Below, piece after piece: positions 3,393 through 33,286 of a stretch of DNA of 44,785 nucleotides; position 1 is the first letter of the stretch, and every line of letters begins with the position of its first letter. This DNA comes from Planctomycetota bacterium (lineage in GTDB: Bacteria > Planctomycetota > Phycisphaerae > Phycisphaerales > SM1A02): contig VGYB01000015.1 of the NCBI GenBank assembly GCA_016873115.1, forward strand, positions 1 to 44,785, written 5' to 3'. The position numbers and the translations under genes are program-made. The notes beneath the pieces were generated by a model, which was not told where the DNA came from, ran no database searches, and worked only from the letters and a program-made list of their open reading frames with translations.

Positions 3393-5414
3393 ATGAACCG
3401 CACCCTTGCCGCCTGCTGCCTCGTCGCCCTGCTCGCTGCCTGCACCGACCCACAGGCTCGCCATCCCGAGGACGCCACGAACGCGATTCGCATGTGGGGG
3501 CAGAAGCTCGCGGCTGCCAACAACGCCGAGACGCTCGACGAGCGCATCGAGCAGTGCCGCACGGCGGCGCAAAGGCTTTCCTCGATCCCGGGAGCGAGCA
3601 GCGCACAGCAGAGCGCCTCGTCCCTGATCGCCGCGCGCGGGTACCTGCAGTCCGCCACCTTCGGCATGCAGAAGGTCGACACCATGATGGCGCAGGACCG
3701 CGCAGCCCGCGCGATGATCACCAGCCTGCTGCCGGACATGGTCGTCGCCGGTGCCGCACTCGAAGCGATCCAGGCCACCAACCTCGGCCCGATCGCTGCC
3801 GAACTCGAGCGGCTCGCCATGACCTTCGAGGCAGGCGGCGTGCTCGAAGGCATCGATGCCGTGGCGCTGGCCGAGCAGGCCGAGGAGCTCCAAGCCGCAG
3901 CGGCCACGCTGCAGGCCACCTCGGCATCGCGTCTGGCCGAGGCCCGCGAACGCCTTGCCGCCTCGCGCTCCGAATCGCCGATGGGCCGCGTGCGTGCGAG
4001 CGACGAAGCCCTGGGCCTGACGCTCGAAGCACGCGAGGCGGCTCGCGATGGCATGGTCGCCGAAGTCACCTACGAAGCACGTGCTGCGACAGCCATGGAA
4101 CTCGCGTCGATGGCTGATGCCGACCAGAACCTTGACGCAGCGCTCGAACACGCCGTGCAGTCGGTCGCCGCCGAGGCCAAGCGCTTGCAGGACGCGGCCA
4201 AGGAGAGTGCCGAGGCGCTCGATGTCATGAGCGCGCAGGTCGCCGAGGCAGCCAGGGGCATCGCCGATCGCCAGGGCGATGCGCTCCAACAGGCTGTCGA
4301 GGCCGTGACGCAGGATCTGGAGCAGGCCGCCACCCATGCCGGGCGCGCCGCGGGCTTGCAGGGTGCAAGCGGCCAGAGTGCCCGCAACGAGCAACTCACG
4401 ATCGCCCTGCTCCAGGCGCGCCTGGCCGACCTGCGCGCCAGTGCCGCGCTTGCCGATGCAGCCATCGCCGACATGGCAGGCAAGGCGGGTGATGTCGCCG
4501 ACGGCATCGAGTTCGAGGGCGGCGATCCGAGCGAGCTCGTCACGGCTGCGGTCACCGCCTACAAGAACGCCAAGGAAGCGATCGACGGCAGCAGCGCGAC
4601 CGAGGAGTCCAAGACCGCGATGAAGGCGCAGCTCGACACCGCGATCAAGTCGCTCGAGAGCCCTGAGGACTTCGCCGCCGAGATGGCTTCCAAGAGCGGC
4701 ATCGCGCTCGCCTCCGACGCGAAGAAGCCCCCCAAGCGCCCCGCGCGCGCCAAGGCTCCCGCGCGCGCTCCCCTTCCCGACCCGATCGGCTTCGAGAGCG
4801 CCGAGGCGCTGCTTGAGGCGATGAAGACCAGCTACGACTCGATTGAGGGCTTCGACCGCATCGCCAAGTGCATATCCGGCCGCGACGATGCCTCCCGACG
4901 CAATGGTCAGGTCCTCGGCACGCTGAGTTCGGCGATGGGCCCGCTGGTGGTGGCGATGAAGGCCACCTTCGGACCGGAAGCGCTCGCCTCGCTCGGCGAA
5001 TCGACCGCCGGAGCGGCGGATGCGGCCGATTCCACGCTCACCGATGTGACCGACACCGAGGCCACGCTCGTCGCGGGTCCGCAGAACATCAAGCTCTTCA
5101 AGGAGGGCGAGGCATGGTTCATCGATGTGGCCTCGATGCCGCAGGAGGTGATGAGCAGCCCCATGATGAAGCAGCTTGGTGCGCAGATCGGCATGATCGC
5201 AGGCCCGATGCGCGGTGCCGCCGAATCGGTTGCCGCCAAGATCACCGCCGGCGAGATCGCCGATCCGGGTGCGGCGATGCAGGCCTTCCAGCAAGCCATG
5301 ATGGGTGCCATGATGAAGGCCGCCAGCGGTGCCATGGGCGGCATGGCGATCCCCGGTGGTCCGGGCGGCATGGCCAATCCACCCGAGGGCGACCAGGACG
5401 GGACGCTGCCCTGA
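3393..5414 (+). CDS. Ala-rich helical lipoprotein, unknown function
   Basis: 673 residues starting MNRTLAACCLVALLAAC, a type II signal peptide with lipobox LAAC and Cys17 as the lipidated residue. Most of the mature protein (about 20-460) is Ala/Glu/Gln-rich with heptad-like spacing and probably forms long alpha-helices or coiled coils. A basic Lys/Pro/Ala linker lies near residue 450. The C-terminal part has KLFKEGEAWFIDV, as in small secreted domains that report or bind cell-envelope components, and ends in a Met/Gly-rich tail. The ATG was chosen because it gives a clean lipoprotein signal; upstream in-frame codons lie inside the preceding gene. It converges on queG with only 3 bases between stops. 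I do not recognise a function. Confidence 0.72.
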   Translation: MNRTLAACCLVALLAACTDPQARHPEDATNAIRMWGQKLAAANNAETLDERIEQCRTAAQRLSSIPGASSAQQSASSLIAARGYLQSATFGMQKVDTMMAQDRAARAMITSLLPDMVVAGAALEAIQATNLGPIAAELERLAMTFEAGGVLEGIDAVALAEQAEELQAAAATLQATSASRLAEARERLAASRSESPMGRVRASDEALGLTLEAREAARDGMVAEVTYEARAATAMELASMADADQNLDAALEHAVQSVAAEAKRLQDAAKESAEALDVMSAQVAEAARGIADRQGDALQQAVEAVTQDLEQAATHAGRAAGLQGASGQSARNEQLTIALLQARLADLRASAALADAAIADMAGKAGDVADGIEFEGGDPSELVTAAVTAYKNAKEAIDGSSATEESKTAMKAQLDTAIKSLESPEDFAAEMASKSGIALASDAKKPPKRPARAKAPARAPLPDPIGFESAEALLEAMKTSYDSIEGFDRIAKCISGRDDASRRNGQVLGTLSSAMGPLVVAMKATFGPEALASLGESTAGAADAADSTLTDVTDTEATLVAGPQNIKLFKEGEAWFIDVASMPQEVMSSPMMKQLGAQIGMIAGPMRGAAESVAAKITAGEIADPGAAMQAFQQAMMGAMMKAASGAMGGMAIPGGPGGMANPPEGDQDGTLP

Positions 5415-5417
5415 GCC

Positions 5418-6512
5418 TCACGCTCCCAGCCGCGTGAGCTGCCGCTGCGCGGCATGACGAACCAGGTCAGGCTGGGCAGGATCCACGGCGAGTTCACGGA
5501 GTTTCTGCGCCAGCGCCTGACGCCCGGCCTCGCTGCCCTTCCCTTGGACGATCGCCGACGCAGCGGCGTGCACCGCATTGCGGCGTGCCATGTCGAGCGA
5601 GACCCGCTTGAGCGTGCCCGCAAGGAACGCCGCGGTCCGATCCTGCTCCGTCCAACCCAGCACCGTGAGCAGGTCGTGGCTCGCGCCACGCCCGTCGAAG
5701 TCAGGATGGATCCCCGCCCCGCGGCTGCGCACGGTCGGAGCGTTGTGTGGACAGACCTCCTGGCAGATGTCGCAGCCGAAGAGCCAGTCACCGACCGAGT
5801 CCGCGAGCCACGCACTGCCGTCGCCGCGCTCCTCGAGCGTGAAGGTGCTGATGCAACGCGATGCATCGACGGACCACGGCGTGATCGCCTGCGTCGGGCA
5901 GGCATCGATGCAGGCCGTGCAGGCACCGCACGGATCGCTGCCGACACCGGGTGCCGCGCGCGTTGGCTCGAGCTCCAGCGTCGTCAGCAGCTCACCCAGC
6001 AGGATCCAGGAGCCGAGACCGGGCGCAATGCCCAGCGTGTGCTTCCCGATCCGCACGACTCCGGCACGCTCGGCATGCTCGCGCTCGAGCACGGGCTCAA
6101 GATCGCCGCAGCGCCGGAAGGCGTGTCCCGGGAACGCGTCATCGAGCGCCTTGTGCAGCGTGAGCAGGCGCTTCTTCATGCGTCGGTGGTAGTCGCGGCC
6201 GCGGGCGTAGCGCGCCGTGCGACCTCGCGGTGCCGCGCCCTCGTCCACGCGATCGGGCCGACCATCCGCATAGCGATCGGCGACCACGATCACGCTTCGT
6301 GCGCCGGGGAGCATGGTGCACGGATCAAGCCGTGCCTCGAGCTGCTCGCGGAACCATTCCATCGGCCCGTGACGCCCGGCAGCGACCCACTCGCGGATCA
6401 CCTCTTCGCGCGAGGAACGCTCGAGCCGTGCCACGCCGACGGCGGCGAAGCCGAGCTCGCGCCCCCTGGCCACGATCCACTCCGTGAGTTCGGGGCCGCC
6501 AGCGGGGATCAT
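5418..6512 (-). CDS. queG: Epoxyqueuosine reductase
   Basis: 364 residues. QueG reduces epoxyqueuosine to queuosine in the anticodon of tRNAs for Asp, Asn, His and Tyr, and uses a corrinoid plus two [4Fe-4S] clusters. The clusters are visible as CGACTACIDACPTQAI and CDICQEVCPHN, and the N-terminal half carries the FAAVGVARLERSS and RYARGRDYHRRMKKR segments typical of the corrinoid-binding part. The C-terminus has a short helical HEAT-like tail. Length agrees with the family. Its ATG overlaps the hpnE stop (ATGA), so it is the last gene of the hopanoid operon, which is an odd partner for a tRNA-modification enzyme. QueG needs cobalamin, a point of contact with the B12 riboswitch further along. 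Confidence 0.93.
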   Translation of the reverse strand: MIPAGGPELTEWIVARGRELGFAAVGVARLERSSREEVIREWVAAGRHGPMEWFREQLEARLDPCTMLPGARSVIVVADRYADGRPDRVDEGAAPRGRTARYARGRDYHRRMKKRLLTLHKALDDAFPGHAFRRCGDLEPVLEREHAERAGVVRIGKHTLGIAPGLGSWILLGELLTTLELEPTRAAPGVGSDPCGACTACIDACPTQAITPWSVDASRCISTFTLEERGDGSAWLADSVGDWLFGCDICQEVCPHNAPTVRSRGAGIHPDFDGRGASHDLLTVLGWTEQDRTAAFLAGTLKRVSLDMARRNAVHAAASAIVQGKGSEAGRQALAQKLRELAVDPAQPDLVRHAAQRQLTRLGA

Positions 6513-7900: not shown

Positions 7901-8787
7901 GGCACGTACGCCCCTCCGTGCCAGCCCAGTCGCGCACGGAGCGCCACCAGCAGCTTGGCACCCGCCGGCAGCGCCACGCGGACCTCGACGACCGAACGCG
8001 GCCGATCGCGGATCCGTCGTGCGATGCCGCCGTAGATCGCTGTCATGGCCCAGAGCGTAGGCCTGCACGACCCGTCGATCAGCCCATCGAGGGGTGCGCT
8101 GGAGCGGTAGTGCGCCACGCAACGCTCCACCTGCGCCATCATGAACGATTCGCACCGCGGCGCGTCGGTCCAGGCCAGCAGGCTTGCCGGATCGAGCCCC
8201 GCGCGGGAGAGTTCATCCACCGGAAGGTAGCAGCGCCCCATGCCGTGGTCCTCACGGAGATCACGGAGGATGTTGGTGAGCTGGAACGCGATCCCACGGT
8301 CCGTCGACAGCCGCATCGCCTCCGGATCGCTCGCGCCGAAGATGCGCGTGCAGGTCCGCCCCACCGTCCCTGCAACGAGGTCGCAGAAGTGCCGGACCTC
8401 CGACCAGTCCCTGCAGGGTCGATGCTCGGCATCGAGCCGCTGCCCATCGAGCATGCCGTCGAAGTCGGCACGCACCAGGCCGTGATCCCCGATCGAGCGT
8501 GCGAGTGCGGGCCACATCGGGTCGCTGTCGGGCAGGTGGCCCGCGAAGGCTCGCTCGGTCGCCGCACGGAACGCCGCGACCTGCTCGATGCGGTCGGGGC
8601 CGCCGTCGTCAACCAGGTCATCGGCCCTGCGCATCCATGCATAGACCGCATACAGCGCCGAGCGACGGGGTTCGGGTGCGAGCCTGAGGCCGTGATAGAA
8701 GTTGCGGGCCTCGCGTCGCACGATGCCGGCGCAGTGCGCGGCACTCGCCGCGAGGGACGGCTCGCTCCAGGCCTTGACCGCGCTCAC
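7897..8787 (-). CDS. hpnD: Presqualene diphosphate synthase
   Basis: 296 residues of the squalene/phytoene synthase fold. The first Asp-rich motif reads RRADDLVDD and the second is in FQLTNILRDLREDHGMGRCYLP, both magnesium-diphosphate binding sites. HpnD condenses two farnesyl diphosphates to presqualene diphosphate. It is assigned HpnD rather than HpnC because its motifs are the fuller ones, closest to true synthases, and because it lies between hpnC and hpnE. Start: a GTG at 8785-8787 overlaps the upstream stop as GTGA, like the other junctions in this operon. A longer start at 8886 exists but would overlap hpnC by about 100 bases and adds no family sequence. Confidence 0.87.
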   Translation of the reverse strand: MSAVKAWSEPSLAASAAHCAGIVRREARNFYHGLRLAPEPRRSALYAVYAWMRRADDLVDDGGPDRIEQVAAFRAATERAFAGHLPDSDPMWPALARSIGDHGLVRADFDGMLDGQRLDAEHRPCRDWSEVRHFCDLVAGTVGRTCTRIFGASDPEAMRLSTDRGIAFQLTNILRDLREDHGMGRCYLPVDELSRAGLDPASLLAWTDAPRCESFMMAQVERCVAHYRSSAPLDGLIDGSCRPTLWAMTAIYGGIARRIRDRPRSVVEVRVALPAGAKLLVALRARLGWHGGAYVP

Positions 8788-9785
8788 CGCGCGTTCCTCC
8801 GTGCGCGGATCACGGCCTGCAGCACGATCCAGGCCTTCTCCATGGTCCACAGTCGCGGGCGATCCAGGCATGTCTCGACATTCCACTGCTCGATCCGCGC
8901 GAGCGTGCGACGGCCACCCTCGGCGAAGAGCCAGAGCAGCGCTCGATGCTGCGGCGCCACGGCCTGCTCGAGCGCCCCGATCGAGTCATACATGGGGGCC
9001 GTGCGCACCACGCACTCCCACAGGCACTCCCGCCACTGGGACAGGAACTCGCGATCGGGCGCATGGCCGACCTCGATCATCGAGCGGAACCGCTCCTCCA
9101 GACGCTCGCCCCGGAAGAGCTCCGTGGGCACGTAGATCCTGTTGCGCTCGACAAGATCGCGGCGTGCATCCTGCCAGTGGTTGGTCAACTGCAGCGCCGT
9201 GCAGATCGCATCGCTGGCGGCGATCGCAGCCGGGTCGTGCTCGTCGAGGACGCCCAGCACGAGCCGACCCACCGGATCCGCGCTCTCGCGGCAGTACGAC
9301 AGCAGGTCGTCCCAGCGCTCGTAGCGGTTCTGCACCTGATCGCGCAGGAACGCCCGCAGCAGGGCATCGAACGGTTCGCACGCCAAGCCGTGCCGCGCGA
9401 CGACCGGCTGCAGGGCCACGAAGACCGGATGCACCGCATCGCCGGCGAACGCTCGATGCAGCGACTCGCGCCACCAAGAGAGCCATGCGGTCGCCGCCGC
9501 GCGATCACCGGCCTCATCGCCAAGATCGTCGCTGATGCGGCAGAACGCGTAGATCGCCTGGAACGCGCCACGCGCCGCCGCCGGCACCAGGCCGCTCATC
9601 ACGCTGAAGTTCTCGGTGGCGCCGCTGGCCACGCGCGCACAGAACTCCCGTGCATCGTCGACGCTGCACGGCACGCTGGATCGGGGTCCCCAACGATCGA
9701 GTCCGGCCCGCACCATGAGCGATCGAGGCAGGTCCGGCATCGCGGTGGCGAGGACCGTCGAGGCGTTGCCGGTGCGGTCGTCCAT
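8784..9785 (-). CDS. hpnC: Hydroxysqualene synthase
   Basis: 333 residues, the second squalene/phytoene synthase-fold protein of the operon. It shows the HpnC-type motifs CRISDDLGDE and LTNHWQDARRDLVERNRIYVP. HpnC converts presqualene diphosphate to hydroxysqualene. It is the first gene of hpnC-hpnD-hpnE-queG. Upstream on the minus strand is a TATCGT hexamer ending 10 bases before the ATG, back to back with the ispH promoter. The N-terminal 40 residues before the first conserved helix are not conserved-looking, so an internal Met start is possible. Confidence 0.87.
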   Translation of the reverse strand: MDDRTGNASTVLATAMPDLPRSLMVRAGLDRWGPRSSVPCSVDDAREFCARVASGATENFSVMSGLVPAAARGAFQAIYAFCRISDDLGDEAGDRAAATAWLSWWRESLHRAFAGDAVHPVFVALQPVVARHGLACEPFDALLRAFLRDQVQNRYERWDDLLSYCRESADPVGRLVLGVLDEHDPAAIAASDAICTALQLTNHWQDARRDLVERNRIYVPTELFRGERLEERFRSMIEVGHAPDREFLSQWRECLWECVVRTAPMYDSIGALEQAVAPQHRALLWLFAEGGRRTLARIEQWNVETCLDRPRLWTMEKAWIVLQAVIRARRNAR

Positions 9786-26134: not shown

Positions 26135-28543
26135 TTACTTCAGGATCAGGCCGACGCTCTCGGCGGCCGGCAGATCCAGGGCGCCCCACGCTTGGCCGGC
26201 CGCCACGGCGGTGTCGCCGCTGGAGGATCCGATCAGGGCGCGCAGGCCATCGACATGGCGGGCCTGCAGGCGATTGCCGCCCACTCGTGCGCTGGCGGCC
26301 AGTGCACCCAGGAGCGCCGACTGCTCCTCTCCGCTCGCGGCGAGTGCAGTGTCGGCCAGGGCGCACTGAGCGCGGGCAGACTTGAGCACGGCCACGGTGT
26401 TGGCAACATCCAGGCGCGACTCGCCCTCGAAGCGCGCGAGCGCATCGAGCAGCTGGGATTCGGCGACGCTCGCATCGAGCGCACAGCCGGGCTTGGAGGC
26501 AATCGCGCGGAGCGCCGCGAGCGCTCTGGCCGCGTATCCGGAAGCTTCCTCGGCGGTCATCGCGCCGCCGGCCACCGAGCCCATGATGCTGGTGACGGCA
26601 GCCTTGAACGCCTCGTCGGGTGCGCCGATCTCGAAGAGCTGGGTGTTCATGTCCGCACCCACCGCTGCACGCACGCGACCGCTATCGGCGGCGCTGACGC
26701 TCACGAGTGCGGGGACCGAGGCCATCGTGCGGCTCGCGCGCAGTCCAGCCACGGCGCGGGAGGTGCCAGTGACATCGGTGCGGCTGCCGGCATCGTCGAC
26801 CGGACGGCGACCGCCGCGCTCGGAAGCCATCAACTGCACGACGAGCAGGTCAACGGCACTGTTGCCGAGCTCGGCCTCGAGCTCTTCAAAGGTCCGGAAG
26901 TCGCCGCCGACCACCCGGAAGCCTGCCGTGCCGAGCTTCTGTTGCAATGCGGCCCGGTCTTCGTTGCTCGTGGTGATCACGGCGGCGAGCGGATCGGCGC
27001 CGACGGCCAGGATCGAGGCGAGCGTGGGGACCACGCTCGAGTCGTACGCGAACGAACTCGTCGGGGCGAGGCCACCGAAGAGCAGCGCCGCATCGAAGCG
27101 CACGCGACGGTCACCGTAGGTCAGTGCTTCGCAGGCAGCGCTCACATCGCTCGGGGCAAGGCGCTGTTCGCCCGCGATCTCACCAAGGTGCATCAGGGCC
27201 GTGCGCGCCAGTCCGAGGTCATCGGCACCCAGTGCGAGGGCAAGCACATCCTGGCCAATGCTTGCGCCGGCCGCGGTCGCGAAGAAGGCCGCGCTGTAGG
27301 CGCGCTCGCCGCTGACCGGATCGGGGGACTCGCCCATGACCGCCTCGCGGCGCAGATCGTTGGCGACGAAGAGCGCAAGCGCCTGGGCGTTTGACGAATC
27401 AGCCAGCAGCGCGGAGCGCGCCGCCTGCATGCCCATGATGGCGTGGAAGGCTCCCGTGGGCACGGCCACCGGCATCAGGCCGTCGCCCTCCCAGATCCAC
27501 GCAAAATTGTTGGGTTCGTAGGGCTGCGCAAGGAGCGCACTGCGGCGATCGAAGTGCGCGCGGGCCAGCGAGGTGTACTCGGCCGAGACCGATGCACCCT
27601 TGCCGCCGCACGCGGTGTACGCGCGGCCGGCGGCCGAAGCGACTTCCTGCGATCCATCCTTGGAGAGTTCGAGTGCGCGCAGGCCCGCTGCGGCCGTTGG
27701 CGAACCGATGGCGCCAAGGATCTCGCAGATCAGGATCTGGTTGCTCGCATCGAGGTTCGGGAGAGCAGCCACGAGCGGCGCCACCCCTGCCGAACCGAGC
27801 TGGGTCAGCATGCGCTGCGCGGCAAGCGCGAGCTGGTCGTTGCCAATGCCGGTCGCCGCGCGCAGGAGCGCCGGCACGGCGAACTCACCAGCGCTCATCA
27901 GGCGAGCGCGGGCATACACCTGCTGGCGGCCCGAGCCAACGAGGTTGTCGACGGCCGACTGGATCATGCGGCCGTTACGGGCCAGTTCCCGGCGACCGTT
28001 CTCGACGCGGGTCTCCAAGGTCACCATCGCCTTGGTGACGCCGTCACCCATCTTGCGGCTGCGGGCGAGCGCACGCTCAAGCCGCTCCGTCAGGTTCTGC
28101 TCCTGCACGAGGAGCGCAAGGTCCTGGTCAGCGATGCTGGACTCCAGGAGCTTCTCGGCGCTCGCCTGGGCAAGCTCCACATTGGCCACCAGGATGTAGT
28201 GCAGGACATCCCGCAGCAGTCGGGCCTGTTCGGCGGTGGCACCTGCACTGTCGGTACCGCCATCGTCGGTGGCCATCGCGTCATCGCTGCCCTTGGCCGA
28301 GCCGGCGTCGTCCGCCATGGGCTCATCACCAGAGGGCTCATCCATCGGCTCGGCAGCCGGCTCATCAGCCGGGTCATCGGCCGGCTCGGAGGCAGGTTCC
28401 GAGGGCTCGTCGGGTTCGGTCGGATCATCGATGACGGCGATCACCACGGAGGTGGGCTGTGACACCGTCAGGGGAGCCGCCAAGGCAAAGCGGGCGAGGC
28501 CGAGGGCCAGCAGCAGCGATAGGGTCGAGAGCGGTTGGATCAC
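26135..28543 (-). CDS. Exported HEAT-like repeat protein with acidic linker
   Basis: 802 residues from the GTG at 28541-28543. A signal peptide (IQPLSTLSLLLALGLARFALAA) is followed by a highly acidic linker of repeated EPSDEPA-type units (about 35-95). A long Ala-rich helical-repeat region follows (for example VPALLRAATGIGNDQLALAAQRML and GVAPLVAALPNL). The C-terminal half has a segment, GFRVVGGDFRTFEELEAELG, that could be a small alpha/beta domain. No enzyme signature is visible. Starting at the in-frame ATG at 28612 would put 23 residues in front of the signal peptide, so the GTG is preferred. tRNA-Thr lies 15 bases downstream and the B12 riboswitch transcript is divergent. Confidence 0.68.
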   Translation of the reverse strand: MIQPLSTLSLLLALGLARFALAAPLTVSQPTSVVIAVIDDPTEPDEPSEPASEPADDPADEPAAEPMDEPSGDEPMADDAGSAKGSDDAMATDDGGTDSAGATAEQARLLRDVLHYILVANVELAQASAEKLLESSIADQDLALLVQEQNLTERLERALARSRKMGDGVTKAMVTLETRVENGRRELARNGRMIQSAVDNLVGSGRQQVYARARLMSAGEFAVPALLRAATGIGNDQLALAAQRMLTQLGSAGVAPLVAALPNLDASNQILICEILGAIGSPTAAAGLRALELSKDGSQEVASAAGRAYTACGGKGASVSAEYTSLARAHFDRRSALLAQPYEPNNFAWIWEGDGLMPVAVPTGAFHAIMGMQAARSALLADSSNAQALALFVANDLRREAVMGESPDPVSGERAYSAAFFATAAGASIGQDVLALALGADDLGLARTALMHLGEIAGEQRLAPSDVSAACEALTYGDRRVRFDAALLFGGLAPTSSFAYDSSVVPTLASILAVGADPLAAVITTSNEDRAALQQKLGTAGFRVVGGDFRTFEELEAELGNSAVDLLVVQLMASERGGRRPVDDAGSRTDVTGTSRAVAGLRASRTMASVPALVSVSAADSGRVRAAVGADMNTQLFEIGAPDEAFKAAVTSIMGSVAGGAMTAEEASGYAARALAALRAIASKPGCALDASVAESQLLDALARFEGESRLDVANTVAVLKSARAQCALADTALAASGEEQSALLGALAASARVGGNRLQARHVDGLRALIGSSSGDTAVAAGQAWGALDLPAAESVGLILK

Positions 28544-28682
28544 GTCGCGGACTCCGTGGTCGTGGGTGGCCCCGGCAGGCGCAGGGGCAAGGTTGGCAAG
28601 GGTATCGGGCATCCCGCTTCAGTGCAACGAACCCCGGACGACCGTTCGCACGGACGCCAGGCAAGGTTCCCGGTAACCTCCC

Positions 28683-28884
28683 GGCGTCGGTCGTTGGCCG
28701 GATGTCCGGCCAATCGCAGCGCGCCGTGTGCTGCGAGGGAAGCGTGGTGCAACACCACCGCGGACGCGCCGCCGTAACGGGTCGTTGGCTCAACAAGCCA
28801 GCGCCTCGACTCAATGAAGACCACTGGGCTCCGCGGCCCGGGAAGGTCGAGTCGGGACCCGAAGCCGGAAGACCTGCCGACACC
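28683..28884 (+). ncRNA. Cobalamin (adenosylcobalamin) riboswitch
   Basis: Conserved blocks of the cobalamin element appear in order. The 5' P1 strand is at about 28684-28690. The B12-box neighbourhood GAGGGAAG is at 28734-28741, then GGTGCAACACCACC at 28745-28758 and GCCGCCGTAAC further on. Next come CCACTGG at 28820-28826 and GGGAAGG at 28840-28846, then AGCCGGAAGACCTGCC at 28863-28878, whose end pairs with the 5' strand to close P1 (28686-28690 with 28877-28881). This matches the btuB-type consensus from memory. A GC-rich hairpin (28896-28900 with 28910-28914) sits between the aptamer and the Shine-Dalgarno sequence (GGAGG about 28931-28935) of the 28941 gene, so translational or attenuation control is plausible. 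The remainder of the 397-base gap, 28544-28682, shows nothing recognisable except the divergent upstream region. Confidence 0.93.
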
Positions 28885-28940
28885 ATGCGCTGCGTGCCCC
28901 CGCGATCCCGGGGCCAGGGCGCGAGTCCGCGGAGGTTCCC

Positions 28941-29834
28941 ATGCATCGCCTGCCCCTTTTCGTCCTGCTTGCCGCCCTGCCAGGCTCGGCCTTCGCACAA
29001 TCACCGTTCGCCGCGACCGTCGTGAGTTACTCGCCAGGATCAAGTCCGGCAGGCGGCTTCACCATCGCCGCATCGGCACTCGGCGAACCCACCCGCTTCA
29101 CGGGCGGCCCCTTCTTCCCGCAGGCCGTCACGCCGTTCCAACCGGCGTTCATGACCAACGAGATCGTGTCGCTCGGTGCAGGCGGCGAACTCGTGGTGGC
29201 GTTCGACCATGAGGTCATCGACGACCCGCGCAATCCATTCGGCGTGGACCTCATCGTCTTCGGCAATGCGTTCTTCAGTGATGCGGCGTACCCATCAGGC
29301 ATGCCGGCGGGAATCTTCGCCGAAGGCGGGCAGATCGCCGTCAGCGCCGACGGCGCGACATGGACCACGGTTGCGGGCATCGATGCCGATGGCTTCGCGC
29401 CGACCCGTGGCTGGCTCGATGCACCTCCCTACTCGGCGGTGCCGGGACTCGAACCCTCGGACTTCACCAGGCCGATCGACCCATCCATCACGGCGGCATC
29501 CATGATCGGTCAGGACTGGGCCAACCTCTGTGCCATGTACGACGGCTCCGGCGGCGGCGCAGGCATCGATCTTGCTCCGCTCGGTCTTGCCTCGATCCGA
29601 TTCGTGCGGGTCCGGGTGCCCGTGGGTGCGATGCAGAGTGCCGAGATCGATGGCTTCAGCGATGTGGCGGCAGAAGTCGCGAGTGGTGATCTCGATGGCA
29701 ACGGCTCGATCGATGGCGCCGATCTGGGCATCATGCTGAGTGCCTTCGGCATCGCCGATCCGGTTGCGGACCTCGATGGAAACGGCATCGTCGATGGCAG
29801 CGATCTCGGTGCACTCTTGGCGGCCTGGTCATGA
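28941..29834 (+). CDS. B12-regulated exported protein with C-terminal dockerin repeats
   Basis: 297 residues. A signal peptide (MHRLPLFVLLAALPGSAFA, cleaved before QSP) is followed by a beta-rich domain. It contains VVSYSPG, EIVSLGAGGELVVAFDHEVIDD, VDLIVFGNAFF, QIAVSADGATW and LAPLGLASIRFVRVRVP. From memory, this pattern belongs to a family of exported 'cell surface' proteins that often sit beside BtuB-type cobalamin transport genes under B12 riboswitches. The C-terminus is two planctomycete-type dockerin calcium loops, GDLDGNGSIDGADLG and ADLDGNGIVDGSDLG, likely for anchoring or protein-protein contacts. A GGAGG Shine-Dalgarno sequence precedes the ATG. It is first in the riboswitch operon; the stop overlaps the next ATG as ATGA. 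Confidence 0.8.
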   Translation: MHRLPLFVLLAALPGSAFAQSPFAATVVSYSPGSSPAGGFTIAASALGEPTRFTGGPFFPQAVTPFQPAFMTNEIVSLGAGGELVVAFDHEVIDDPRNPFGVDLIVFGNAFFSDAAYPSGMPAGIFAEGGQIAVSADGATWTTVAGIDADGFAPTRGWLDAPPYSAVPGLEPSDFTRPIDPSITAASMIGQDWANLCAMYDGSGGGAGIDLAPLGLASIRFVRVRVPVGAMQSAEIDGFSDVAAEVASGDLDGNGSIDGADLGIMLSAFGIADPVADLDGNGIVDGSDLGALLAAWS

Positions 29835-30613
29835 GGCGCGCGTTCGCGCTGATCGAGGTCCTGGTCGTGATCGGCGTCGTCGTGATCCTGATCGGGCTTG
29901 TGCTGCCTGGGCTCTCGACGCTCGCCGAGGGCGGCCGCAGCGCCGAGTGCCAGTCGAACCTCCGGCAACTCTTCAGCGCGTCGCAGGCGTACATCACGCT
30001 GAACAAGGAGCGCTTCGCCCCGGCCATCCTCATGTTCGCTCCCAGTGGTGGTACCGGCGTGCGCACGCTCTCGTGGGACCTCGACACCGCACCGGGGCGC
30101 GCTGCCCTGCCGGGGTCGATCACGCGGCATCTCGACTCGCCCAGCCGCGTCCAGCAGTGCCCAAGCTGGACCGGCAACGACCCCAGCGGCGATCCCTTCA
30201 CGGGCTACAACTACAACACGACCTTCATCGGTGCCGAGGGCCGTTTCCCGCAGGTGGGTCCTGGTGGCACGATCCTCGATGGATGGTCCAACGCACGGAC
30301 GGGGCTCGCGAGTGCGCAGTGCCGCAACTCCCAGGCCGCCCTCATGGGCGATGCCGGTTGGGCCGGCGGCACCAACAAGTACATGCGTGCACCCATGAAC
30401 ACGGTCGAGGGCGACCTCCTCATGATCTGTGCCGGAGCCCAGGCGTTCCGGCACCTTGGCTGTTCGCATGTGGTGCGCCTGGATGGCTCCGTGCACGGCG
30501 TCTGCACCAGCTGCGCCGGCGCGATCTCGACGCCGCAATCACTCGAGACGGTGATGGGCCATCCCGCCAATGGATTCCTGTCCGAGGATGACGCTGCCTA
30601 CGATCCACGGTGA
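29831..30613 (+). CDS. Type II secretion/type IV pilus-like pseudopilin
   Basis: 260 residues. It starts MRRA-FALIEVLVVIGVVVILIGLVLPGL: a short basic leader, cleavage before Phe5, Glu9 at position +5, and a 20-residue hydrophobic helix. This is the class III signal of prepilins (N-terminal cleavage/methylation domain). The C-terminal globular part has paired cysteines (QCPSW, SQCRNS, CTSCAG) and resembles the H-X9-DG-type planctomycete pseudopilins: FRHLGCSHVVRLDGSVHGV is close to that tail. It is translationally coupled to the upstream surface protein gene. A prepilin-like protein under a B12 riboswitch is unexpected. Confidence 0.78.
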   Translation: MRRAFALIEVLVVIGVVVILIGLVLPGLSTLAEGGRSAECQSNLRQLFSASQAYITLNKERFAPAILMFAPSGGTGVRTLSWDLDTAPGRAALPGSITRHLDSPSRVQQCPSWTGNDPSGDPFTGYNYNTTFIGAEGRFPQVGPGGTILDGWSNARTGLASAQCRNSQAALMGDAGWAGGTNKYMRAPMNTVEGDLLMICAGAQAFRHLGCSHVVRLDGSVHGVCTSCAGAISTPQSLETVMGHPANGFLSEDDAAYDPR

Positions 30614-30623
30614 GGCCTGACGG

Positions 30624-30833
30624 ATGCACGACCAGCAACTCAGCATCGATCGCTGTGTATGCCACGATGTGACCTTCGAGCGTGCGCTCGAGGTGGCGAA
30701 GGGGCGTGCGCTGTCGCTTGAGCAGCTCGCCGACGAGCTGGGCTGCACCACGGGCTGCGGTTCCTGCGAGCCCTATCTCCGTCGCTGCCTTGCCTCGGGA
30801 CAGGTGGTCTTCCGCGAGATCATCGAAGACTGA
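30624..30833 (+). CDS. BFD-like [2Fe-2S]-binding domain protein
   Basis: 69 residues. Cys11-x-Cys13 followed by Cys41...Cys45-x2-Cys48 (RCVCHD and GCTTGCGSC) is the cluster site of the BFD-like family (bacterioferritin-associated ferredoxin and similar domains in NirB/NasB-type proteins). It has no other domain. BFD proteins pass electrons to release iron from bacterioferritin; here the partner is unknown. It lies 10 bases after the pseudopilin gene and 18 before the methyltransferase gene, so it is probably in the same transcript. Five cysteines are present, so which four bind the cluster is not certain. Confidence 0.82.
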   Translation: MHDQQLSIDRCVCHDVTFERALEVAKGRALSLEQLADELGCTTGCGSCEPYLRRCLASGQVVFREIIED

Positions 30834-30851
30834 TTCCATGGGACCACGATC

Positions 30852-31478
30852 ATGAAGTCGATCATGAAGTCGCTGCACCGCGGCATCTACGCGGAGCGAC
30901 TGCGGCACCTCGTGGACCTGCTCGTCGAGGTCGTCCGCCCGGGCGACCGGATCCTGGATGTCGGATGCGGCAATGGCACGCTGCTCGATGCCCTGGTGCG
31001 CGATCCGCGCTGCCCGAAGGGCGTGATGCCGAAGGGTGTCGAGCGGGTGACGCGCGGCGGTGAGCCCATTCCGGTGGTGGCCTACACCGGCGGAAGGCTC
31101 CCCTTCGATGATGCATCGTTCGATGTGGTCACCATCGCCGATGTGCTGCACCATGAGCCCGACGACGAGGCCTTGTTGCGTGAGTGCCTGCGCGTGGCCC
31201 GGCGGGTGGTCGTGGTGAAGGACCATGCGCGCGAAGGGCCGCTGGCGCAGTCACGCATCTCCCTCATGGACTGGGCGGCCAACGCGCCGTACGGCGTGCC
31301 CTGCCTCTATCGATACCACTCGTTGCACGAGTGGCGGGCGCTCTGCGCGCGCGTGCACGCGCCGATCGTGAAGCTCATCAGCCCCATGCGCCTCTACCCT
31401 CGGGGATGGGAGTTCTTGTTCGGTGGGCGGCTGCAGATCGTGGTCGTCCTTGACGCCGCCGCTGCGCGCGAGGAGTAA
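30852..31478 (+). CDS. Class I SAM-dependent methyltransferase
   Basis: 208 residues. The SAM-binding motif I is ILDVGCGNGTLL, followed by an acidic/hydrophobic LPFDDASFDVVTIADVLHH motif IV and LLRECLRVARRVVVVKDH, all typical of the Methyltransf_11 type. The C-terminal part (SLHEWRALCARVHAPIVKL and FGGRLQIVVVLD) is less conserved. The substrate is unknown. It is the last gene of the riboswitch cluster, so it may be co-regulated by cobalamin; whether it modifies a lipid, a protein or a cofactor cannot be told. An alternative start is the second Met, 12 bases on. It converges on mutL. Confidence 0.8.
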   Translation: MKSIMKSLHRGIYAERLRHLVDLLVEVVRPGDRILDVGCGNGTLLDALVRDPRCPKGVMPKGVERVTRGGEPIPVVAYTGGRLPFDDASFDVVTIADVLHHEPDDEALLRECLRVARRVVVVKDHAREGPLAQSRISLMDWAANAPYGVPCLYRYHSLHEWRALCARVHAPIVKLISPMRLYPRGWEFLFGGRLQIVVVLDAAAAREE

Positions 31479-31495
31479 GCGAGCCAGAGGGTCAG

Positions 31496-33286
31496 TCACG
31501 AGCGCCCGAAACGGCGCTCGAGCTCGGCCGTGGTCAGGCGGAACGCGGTGGGCCGGCCATGCGGGCAGCGATCCGGCCGGTCGATCGTGTCGCGGCGCGC
31601 CAGGAGTGCCGCGATCTCGGTGGCCGTCAGCCGATCACCCGCCTTCACCGCAGCCTTGCACGCCATCAGGTCGAGCACCTCGCTCAGCGCCGCCTCGGCG
31701 GCGCGCGGATCATCGGCGCGCAGGTCGCCCGCAGCGATCGAGAGCAGGAACTCCTGCGCTCCGACGCCGCGCTCCACGAGAAAGCTCGGCATGCTGTGCA
31801 CCGCGATCATGCGCGCACCCGAGGGCGTGCACTCGAGCCCGAGCCGATCGAGGATCGGTGCGAGCGCCTCGATGCGTTCGATGGCGCCGGTGCCGCAATC
31901 GACGAGCTCGGGCATGAGCAGGCGCTGCCGTTCAAGCGGGGCGCGCTCGATGCGGGCCTTCAGGTCCTCGAACATGACGCGCTCATGCAGGGCATGCTGA
32001 TCGATCACGGTCACTCCATCGCCCTCCTCCACCACGAGCCAGGCATGATCGATCTGCATGAAGCGCACGGGAGCCGAGCGCTCGACCGCCCGCATCGGTG
32101 CGGCGTCGTGGGCTGATGATCGTGCAGCAGGTTCACGGGAGAGCTCCGTCACGGCGTCCCCGGTCGGCTGCGTCCACGGGATGCCGCCATCCGCGTGCAC
32201 GATCGTCCGTTGCGTCATGCCGAGCGGGAGCGGAAGCGTGGGTTCAGGATGCTCCATCGCAGGCAGCCGCTGCGTGACGACGAGCCCGCGGCGCTCGAGC
32301 GCCTGCGCCACGGCGCGGCGGATCGCTCGATGCACGAGGCTGGGGAAGCGCAGGCGCACCTCGGTCTTGGCCGGATGCACATTCATGTCGACGGCACGCG
32401 GATCGAGCTCGACGAAGAGCGCGTACACCGGATGCACGGACGGATCCATCAGCCCGCGGAACGCCTCGCGCACCGCATGCTGCAGCGAGCGATCCTCGAT
32501 CGAGCGCCCGTTGATGAGGAGCCACTGGTTGCGGGCGGATGCCTTCGCAGCAGCCGGCGTACCGACCACGCCACCGATGCGGATGGGCCCGTGCAGCTCC
32601 GGGGATTCGAGTTCGAGCGCCAGGTCAAGCAGTTCAGGCGCCAATCCGGCGCCGAGCACCTGCACGCAGCGGGTGCGCTCATCCTGCGGCGGAAGGTCCA
32701 TGATCGTCCGGCCATCGCTCGAGAGCGTGAAGCCGATGCCCGGCGCGGCGAGCGCGATGGCATCGACCGCATCATGCACGCGGCCGGTCTCGGCAGCCTG
32801 GCTGCGCAGGAACTTGCGCCGGGCCGGCACATTGCGGAAGAGCGTCTGGACCTCGACGACGGTGCCCGGCGCGCCCGCCGCCGGACGCGGCCCGTTCACG
32901 AACCCGCCATCGACCTCGATCGCATGGGCGTGGGGATCATTGGCTCGACGGCTCGTGATCCGGAGCTGCGCCACGCTGCCGATGCTGGCGAGCGCCTCGC
33001 CGCGGAAGCCGTAACTTGCGACCGCCTTGAGGTCATCGAAGCTCGCGATCTTGCTGGTGGCGTGGGCCGTGACCGCCAGCAGCAGTTCATCGGGTGCGAT
33101 CCCTCCCCCGTCGTCACTCACACGGATCAGATCGGCTCCCCCGCCCTCGAGCTCGATGCTGACGCGCGCTGCACCGGCATCGAGCGCGTTCTCGACGAGT
33201 TCCTTCACCACGCTCGCGGGACGCTCCACCACCTCGCCCGCGGCGATCTGGTTCACCAGTTCGGGCATCAGCAATCGGATCGGCAT
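31496..33286 (-). CDS. mutL: DNA mismatch repair protein MutL
   Basis: 596 residues. The GHKL ATPase N-terminus has VNQIAAGEVVERPASVVKELVENALDAG, DDGGGI and ATSKI...GFRGEAL. The C-terminal part carries the endonuclease motif DQHA-x2-E-x4-E (DQHALHERVMFE), plus ACKAAVKAGDRL and CPHGRPT. MutL of this type nicks the daughter strand in MutS-directed repair. Its ATG overlaps the nadE stop by one base (TGATG), so it is translated within the pckA-ilvA-nadE-mutL operon, a setting not typical for mutL. The divergent linker between the domains is short and acidic/Ala-rich. Confidence 0.94.
   Translation of the reverse strand: MPIRLLMPELVNQIAAGEVVERPASVVKELVENALDAGAARVSIELEGGGADLIRVSDDGGGIAPDELLLAVTAHATSKIASFDDLKAVASYGFRGEALASIGSVAQLRITSRRANDPHAHAIEVDGGFVNGPRPAAGAPGTVVEVQTLFRNVPARRKFLRSQAAETGRVHDAVDAIALAAPGIGFTLSSDGRTIMDLPPQDERTRCVQVLGAGLAPELLDLALELESPELHGPIRIGGVVGTPAAAKASARNQWLLINGRSIEDRSLQHAVREAFRGLMDPSVHPVYALFVELDPRAVDMNVHPAKTEVRLRFPSLVHRAIRRAVAQALERRGLVVTQRLPAMEHPEPTLPLPLGMTQRTIVHADGGIPWTQPTGDAVTELSREPAARSSAHDAAPMRAVERSAPVRFMQIDHAWLVVEEGDGVTVIDQHALHERVMFEDLKARIERAPLERQRLLMPELVDCGTGAIERIEALAPILDRLGLECTPSGARMIAVHSMPSFLVERGVGAQEFLLSIAAGDLRADDPRAAEAALSEVLDLMACKAAVKAGDRLTATEIAALLARRDTIDRPDRCPHGRPTAFRLTTAELERRFGRS

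Follow-up and report, generated by a model that had tools for sequence, protein, structure and literature searches.

A cobalamin riboswitch locus of Phycisphaerales pairing an exported BtuH-like protein with a pseudopilin: a probable cobamide-capture operon

The riboswitch locus and its conserved unit

The contig VGYB01000015.1 of a Planctomycetota bacterium (order Phycisphaerales, assembly GCA_016873115.1, 95.9% complete) was analyzed over its whole length of 44,785 nucleotides (nt), hereafter referred to as the window (contig C15 of this genome). Its forward strand carries a cobalamin riboswitch followed by four tightly packed genes, here called g1 to g4, the first of which encodes an exported protein resembling the vitamin B12-binding domain of Bacteroides BtuH and the second a type IV pseudopilin. 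An initial annotation had proposed a B12 aptamer ahead of these genes, and a covariance search with RF00174 (cmscan) confirmed it with a match of 60.3 bits (gathering score 31.5) that spans the full model (positions 1-189; E = 1.3e-12 over the whole window). The packing of the genes also proved to be as described there, with an ATGA overlap between g1 and g2 and gaps of 10 bases between g2 and g3 and 18 bases between g3 and g4, as did the identities given to the four products. The features of the locus are:

28671-28895, + strand: class-I cobalamin riboswitch aptamer (RF00174 match; a riboswitch also precedes g1 in 76/80 relatives)
28672-28681, + strand: candidate anti-Shine-Dalgarno strand, GGTAACCTCC (suggested by the sequence and the genus alignment)
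28898-28913, + strand: GC-rich hairpin directly 3' of the aptamer, with GCGAT in its loop (small changes within the genus)
28931-28935, + strand: Shine-Dalgarno sequence GGAGG of g1 (from the sequence; invariant in 8/8 genus sequences)
28941-29834, + strand: g1, exported protein of 297 amino acids (signal peptide at about 1-19, BtuH-like domain at about 20-247, dockerin-type tail at about 248-297)
28998-29681, + strand: BtuH-like domain of g1 (AlphaFold2 model; Z = 13.2 against 7BIZ)
29682-29831, + strand: dockerin-type tail of g1 (superposition on 2Y3N; NCBIfam match below cut-off)
29831-30613, + strand: g2, type IV pseudopilin of 260 amino acids, from a subfamily tied to this locus
30624-30833, + strand: g3, BFD-like [2Fe-2S] protein of 69 amino acids, optional (Fer2_BFD, PF04324; 29/70 loci)
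30852-31478, + strand: g4, S-adenosylmethionine (SAM) methyltransferase of 208 amino acids, lineage-specific passenger (PF08241; 1/70 loci)

Relatives of g1 were collected by scanning one genome per species across 84,980 species. This yielded 185 relatives, of which the best 80 were retained; 69 of these carry planctomycete titles and the other 11 are not so titled. The leaders of these loci were searched with a sequence profile built from 19 aptamers (the 20-row alignment A4 without L043, which lay in reversed orientation), and matches were counted as positive above the best reversed-sequence control (11.3 bits). A riboswitch was found upstream of g1 in all but four of the 80 (L118, L163, L179, and L191). 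Genes 3' of g1 were counted in the 70 loci with more than 2.5 kb of sequence on that side, where g2 was present in 68/70, g3 in 29/70, and g4 in 1/70. Since 14 of the 80 loci come from genomes that were mostly used in building the profiles, the counts were repeated by hand without them, giving 64/66 for the riboswitch and 64/66 for g2. From these frequencies, the conserved unit consists of the riboswitch, g1, and g2, with g3 as an optional member and g4 as a local addition. The expectation that the four-gene cluster is conserved in relatives thus holds for its riboswitch-g1-g2 part, and we rejected the four genes as a single conserved unit on the basis of the single locus with g4. Both g3 (PF04324, 28.5 bits, cut-off 26), perhaps an electron carrier, and g4 (PF08241, 46.1 bits, cut-off 21.2) are at most accessory.

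A panel of 31 genomes (the genome of the window and 30 relatives) was used for genome-wide counts. RF00174 matches over the cut-off are present in 28/31 genomes (exceptions G005, G013, and G027) and the g1 domain in 26/31, the latter being our own count, as many other matches to the g1 query fall on the dockerin tail. In a phylum sample of 246 genomes, the g1 domain profile matches 28, and its 10 matches of at least 140 bits all belong to the order or class of the window. No g1 relative was found on viral contigs (62 pattern matches, 0 confirmed).

The exported protein g1 and the pseudopilin g2

The N-terminus of g1 is signal-peptide-like, with no Cys at the signal peptide end, and its C-terminus matches an NCBIfam GC-type dockerin model at 23.8 bits, under the cut-off of 29. 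The modelled tail superposes on dockerin 2Y3N with Z = 9.1 and a root-mean-square deviation (rmsd) of 1.0 over 50 residues. The main domain is covered by no Pfam or NCBIfam family, and DUF4465 (BtuJ) is absent among the Pfam matches of the window g1 up to E = 1. An AlphaFold2 model of g1 built from 53 sequences (predicted local distance difference test, pLDDT = 95.8; predicted template modelling score, pTM = 0.86) was used for fold searches. Foldseek placed 8BLW_B (BtuG1 of B. thetaiotaomicron, in the BtuB1-BtuG1 structure) first (E = 1.7e-6), as the sole match at E ≤ 0.001, and VIA-align aligned g1 to the BtuH domains of 7BIZ (BtuH2; Z = 13.2, rmsd 3.5, 144 aligned residues, 29% identity) and 8BLW (Z = 12.6, rmsd 3.4, 148 aligned), the next rows being PAPP-A and carbohydrate-binding modules at Z = 10.5 and lower. 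At the sequence level, two g1 homologues from other families of the order, both encoded downstream of cobalamin riboswitches, give E = 6.4e-18 and 2.8e-20 against 8BLW and E = 7.6e-11 and 2.4e-12 against 7BIZ, and the window g1 matches one of the two (E = 1e-13). A g1 profile compared with BtuH2 gave E = 2.7e-5 (probability 74%), as against 0.24 for the control comparison with the unrelated g2.

The modelled fold and these comparisons identify g1 as distantly homologous to the domain with which Bacteroides BtuH binds B12, in agreement with the initial annotation, where it was linked to a BtuB-associated surface family. We file it as a BtuH-domain homologue and not as part of a BtuH operon, since it has no lipoprotein Cys and its genome no Plug or TonB-barrel match. 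The BtuH2 contact residues given in PMC8941943 fit the letters of the structure's chain at a constant offset, and Asn399, which contacts the B12 phosphate according to the available passages of that paper, corresponds to g1 Asn109 (codon 29265-29267), invariant in 25/25 sequences and in 53/53 of a larger set. Phe401 corresponds to g1 Phe111 (Phe in 12/25 and 33/53), and Gln333 aligns with a Pro in the window g1 (Gln in 4/25). Because the Asn is invariant yet most other BtuH2 contacts meet Pro or gaps, B12 binding by g1 is likely but not established, with a pocket that would differ in detail from that of BtuH2. A location at the cell surface is suggested for g1. The genome of the window has 65 matches to the g1 query; among the matches listed, all but g1 itself cover the C-terminal part, so dockerin-tailed proteins appear to be numerous in this genome.

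The N-terminus of g2 is of the prepilin type. N_methyl matches it at 13.4 bits, below the cut-off of 21.2 (one relative reaches 31.9 bits), the prepilin motif is present in most loci, and Glu9 is invariant (38/38). In the g2 model (pLDDT = 91.2), a long helix at the N-terminus is followed by a beta domain at the C-terminus; Foldseek returned no match at E ≤ 0.001, and the fold search gave no informative non-pilin relative. A g2 profile finds one gene of at least 190 bits in 19/31 genomes (split over two contigs in G004), and these genes adjoin g1 where the contig permits; in G007, g1 and g2 are each located at the end of a contig. A 140-bit g2 fragment, also at a contig end, is found in G018. 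No other match, out of a total of 14 to 83 in each genome, exceeds 102 bits; several of the strongest of these (in G020, G021, G025, and G029) again adjoin a g1 homologue. As the top-scoring gene is single in each of the 19 genomes and lies beside g1 where the contig permits, this distribution indicates that g2 belongs to the g1 riboswitch locus as a pseudopilin subfamily of its own. The g1 and g2 proteins may also be physically linked.

The locus varies among relatives. G020, G021, G025, and G029 encode an apparently exported protein of about 360 amino acids ahead of g1 (no Pfam family exceeded the cut-off in the two that were scanned), and a PQQ_2-type propeller protein lies between g1 and g2 in G019, G024, G028, L157, and L191. 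In L099, L173, and L180, g1 is preceded by a protein of a PEP-CTERM-like family of small exported proteins, for which no Pfam family over the cut-off and no convincing PDB sequence match were obtained. A 170-amino acid member of this family is encoded on contig C60 (L042) of the genome of the window (5238-5747, - strand), where an RF00174 match of 25 bits (112 nt), weak and below cut-off, precedes it; the family has its own riboswitch also in G002, G012, G016, and G018. The g1 homologue of L039 (G017; 8574-9731) carries a PEP-CTERM-like tail in place of the dockerin, so that as a surface signal either tail seems able to stand in for the other. A weak match links the BtuH-like protein of G020 (L097:9228-10346) to the LIC_13355 lipoprotein family (25.9 bits, cut-off 120) and hints at a possible BtuH-like character of that lipoprotein. 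A BtuG assignment for L098:5615-6697 is not claimed, as no convincing PDB sequence match was obtained. On the other side of the riboswitch, the window encodes a divergently oriented 825-amino acid protein (26135-28612, - strand) with no Pfam family at E ≤ 0.001; this neighbor is present in 14/15 family loci, and in 11/15 it and mutL share a stretch with the g1 block.

Control, B12 supply, and competing explanations

The strand GGTAACCTCC is complementary to 28931-28940, one position excepted, and the genus alignment keeps the GC-rich hairpin and the Shine-Dalgarno region. A kissing loop just 3' of the aptamer is known for this riboswitch class, and the loop of the hairpin at 28898-28913 is a candidate pairing partner of the aptamer loop GGACGCGCC. 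The motif CGCG[AG] occurs close to the aptamer end in 50/76 loci, compared with 1369/3800 random windows. The leader (28671-28960) folds somewhat better than shuffled sequences (z = -2.25; 2/200 equally good). No terminator-like site was found in 28300-31700, and a terminator-like pattern is present in just 6/76 leaders, by a scan of our own that passed over leaders of at least 600 bases. Transcription termination was therefore dropped as the switch mechanism. A leader without terminator, the retained hairpin and Shine-Dalgarno region, and the pairing potential of GGTAACCTCC favor translational control, by which the switch probably acts. Cobalamin riboswitches are established as repressive elements, and by analogy with the class the switch would be off with B12. 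In the same genus, the leader of L028 (3591-3981, G005) keeps the flanks, the hairpin, and the Shine-Dalgarno sequence and lacks the aptamer core as one clean gap, either because the switch was lost naturally or because the assembly is faulty there.

B12-binding domains are present in 31/31 genomes, and CbiC, one single marker of de novo cobamide synthesis, in 0/31. In the genome of the window these domains occur at four places, one of them in a 1177-amino acid frame of MetH size. FecCD matches are likewise found in 31/31 genomes, here on contigs C5 (strong) and C42 (weak). The initial annotation had noted neither a TonB receptor nor an ATP-binding cassette (ABC) system in the window. The absence of a TonB receptor extends to the whole genome, with 0 matches to the Plug (PF07715) and barrel (PF00593) models; an ABC system does exist beyond the window, in a BtuFCD-like operon on contig C5 that encodes in a row a binding protein (PF01497, 28.8 bits), a FecCD permease (PF01032, 208.6 bits), and an ATPase (PF00005, 93.8 bits). 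In 15/31 genomes neither receptor model finds a match; three of these genomes, G019 and G024 (each 100% complete) and G028 (99% complete, in a single contig), all carry g1. As near-complete genomes show no TonB receptor, B12 would need another route across the outer membrane in these bacteria. The g1 domain is present in 14 of the 15 receptor-less genomes (exception G018); mutual exclusion of g1 and TonB receptors was considered and dropped (14/15 vs. 12/16). Three secretin matches, one at a contig end, and 22 N_methyl matches suggest that the genome of the window probably encodes a machine for secretion or pilus formation.

We favor, with reasonable confidence, the reading that the locus is a cobamide-capture operon repressed by B12, in bacteria that depend on B12 and often lack BtuB. 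When B12 is scarce, the riboswitch leader would be open, and g1 and g2 (together with g3 and g4) would be made. The g1 protein would be exported and anchored on the outside of the cell through its dockerin-type tail, its BtuH-like domain catching cobamides, and g2 would enter a type II secretion or type IV pilus-like machine, where it would export or present g1 or help to bring the loaded ligand to the outer membrane. The BtuFCD-like ABC system of contig C5 would carry the vitamin over the inner membrane to B12-dependent enzymes. We infer the steps that follow capture, including the outer-membrane route, and likewise the role of what would be the new element here, a pseudopilin dedicated to a B12-capture operon. 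A bolder proposal, which we consider doubtful, is that a cobamide-specific, B12-regulated pseudopilus passing through a secretin carries BtuH-captured B12 over the outer membrane to BtuFCD independently of TonB. If true, a pseudopilus would do the job of BtuB in much of Phycisphaerae, and a vitamin would have its own type IV filament, much as DNA has the pili of natural transformation. In the available passages of PMC5394234, pili-like fibers of Planctopirus and Gemmata bind dextran, and large molecules are described as crossing the planctomycete outer membrane by an uncharacterized route for which fibers are speculated; these two points make a filament-linked route conceivable.

Several findings weigh against the cobamide-capture reading. 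The genus member G005 (L028) retains g1 and g2 without the aptamer core. BtuH chains were reached neither by phmmer of the window g1 (PDB, E ≤ 1) nor by a PDB search with profile A1, and the 60 of 237 PDB matches listed for profile A5 contain no BtuH but include EF-hand and dockerin chains, drawn in because g1 has a dockerin tail. The BtuH2 corrin contacts His476, Tyr510, Trp511, and Trp577, as well as Leu578, fall opposite gaps in the window g1, in a mapping with contacts from one structure and an unreliable loop alignment. For g2, the top seven VIA-align rows are type IV pilins, all weak (Z ≤ 4.4), and the correlation between g1 and g2 distances (r = 0.80, 32 loci, 0/2000 permutations) can be given by shared vertical descent alone. 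The C5 permease is generically BtuC-like (BtuC is its best NCBIfam model, at 161.6 bits with a cut-off of 334), and no riboswitch was found on contig C5. The g1 domain also occurs in 12/16 genomes with a Plug or barrel match, so the g1 system is no simple replacement of BtuB.

The same data bear on other explanations. One of them, to which we give somewhat less than an even chance, holds that g2 is the secretion or anchoring partner of g1 within a type II machine and takes no part in uptake, B12 entering through a porin or unknown channel. The secretin and N_methyl matches, which make such a machine likely available, fit this well, as does a g1 that is exported and dockerin-tailed; yet among the many dockerin-tailed proteins of the genome it is g1 that the sole g2-subfamily gene adjoins. 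It is also conceivable, and in our view unlikely, that uptake is conventional, with a TonB-dependent BtuB that the assemblies lack or that has diverged too far for the models, and with g1 and g2 as accessories in the manner of Bacteroides BtuH. Plug or TonB-barrel matches do exist in 16/31 genomes, and in G030 (L104, 5454-8529), which has no g1 match, a riboswitch lies directly ahead of a TonB receptor, followed by a PF01902 (diphthamide synthase-like) protein. However, 15/31 genomes have no such match even though the complete G019 and G024 and the near-complete G028 are among them, and the G030 receptor, compared with 120 loci (E ≤ 1e-5), matched its own locus only.

The ligand and the purpose of the operon can be questioned as well. 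The g1 domain could be a BtuH fold with another ligand such as a glycan, since the fold is common to carbohydrate-binding modules; pectin-, fucose-, and CBM32-type binding domains reach Z values of 9 to 10, and the window g1 shows no recognizable counterpart of the BtuH2 corrin contacts. We regard this as improbable, given that BtuG1 or BtuH2 tops both fold lists with a gap to the next match, that the phosphate-binding Asn is invariant, and that a B12 riboswitch precedes the gene in nearly all loci. Cobalamin riboswitches control B12-independent isozymes (e.g., metE) as well as transport, and g3 and g4 resemble cytoplasmic proteins of redox and methyl-transfer reactions, so that the operon might instead provide a B12-independent substitute function repressed by B12. 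This has very little to recommend it, as the conserved members are an exported protein with a BtuH-like domain and a pseudopilin, neither of them an enzyme, and g3 and g4 are dispensable.

Relation to known systems

A full-text literature search returned no paper joining BtuH with planctomycetes, and the papers it listed on cobalamin riboswitches together with pilins or pseudopilins concern other organisms. The nearest case found in that search is a tested DUF4465 protein from the planctomycete Mucisphaera calidilacus that binds B12 (PMC13398666). The cobamide-capture reading would extend BtuH-type capture, known from gut Bacteroidetes, to planctomycetes, and would tie it to a pseudopilin that seemingly serves only this locus. 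A gap also comes to light, namely near-complete genomes that have B12-binding domains without CbiC and without a TonB-receptor match. The g1-g2 pair would offer a defined genetic handle on planctomycete large-molecule uptake, the question left by PMC5394234 as far as its available passages go, and g2 would illustrate how a single member of the numerous DUF1559-type pseudopilins in these genomes can gain a context.

As described in the accessible parts of the BtuH literature, the BtuH/BtuG1 H-domain of B. thetaiotaomicron is a surface B12-binding beta domain, encoded in riboswitch operons and needed for efficient uptake (PMC8941943, PMC10404256); for BtuH2, B12 binding and a helping role in transport are described (PMC8941943), and more than 80% of gut btuH genes lie in operons with btuB (PMC8941943, PMC10404256). 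The g1 protein appears to share its fold and its phosphate-binding Asn, and the two order-level homologues match it by sequence. BtuH, according to the same sources, is a lipoprotein whose domain may be preceded by PKD or beta-propeller parts. By contrast, g1 starts with a plain signal peptide and ends in a dockerin-type tail, its loops are shorter, and its partner is a pseudopilin, with no BtuB. The mix of exported proteins behind planctomycete cobalamin riboswitches resembles the accessory lipoproteins of Bacteroides as outlined in excerpts of PMC12751083. DUF4465/BtuJ proteins are presented in the available text of PMC13398666 and PMC12751083 as exported jelly-roll cobamide binders of B12-scavenging bacteria, with genes often beside TonB receptors and ABC transporters; g1 has no DUF4465 Pfam match.

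The inner-membrane ABC step of E. coli BtuBFCD is likely common with the C5 BtuFCD-like operon; unlike in E. coli, there is no TonB-receptor match here, and a surface binder and a pseudopilin are found instead. The work on Planctopirus and Gemmata fibers mentions, in its available passages, neither B12 nor a pseudopilin gene (PMC5394234). Finally, g2 resembles the DUF1559-type pseudopilins of type II secretion and type IV systems in its prepilin N-terminus, invariant Glu, long helix, and beta domain, and it differs from the others in its subfamily consensus (GGANKFMRAP and NGFLS-DD-AYDPR), in occurring once per genome, and in its place beside a BtuH-like gene.

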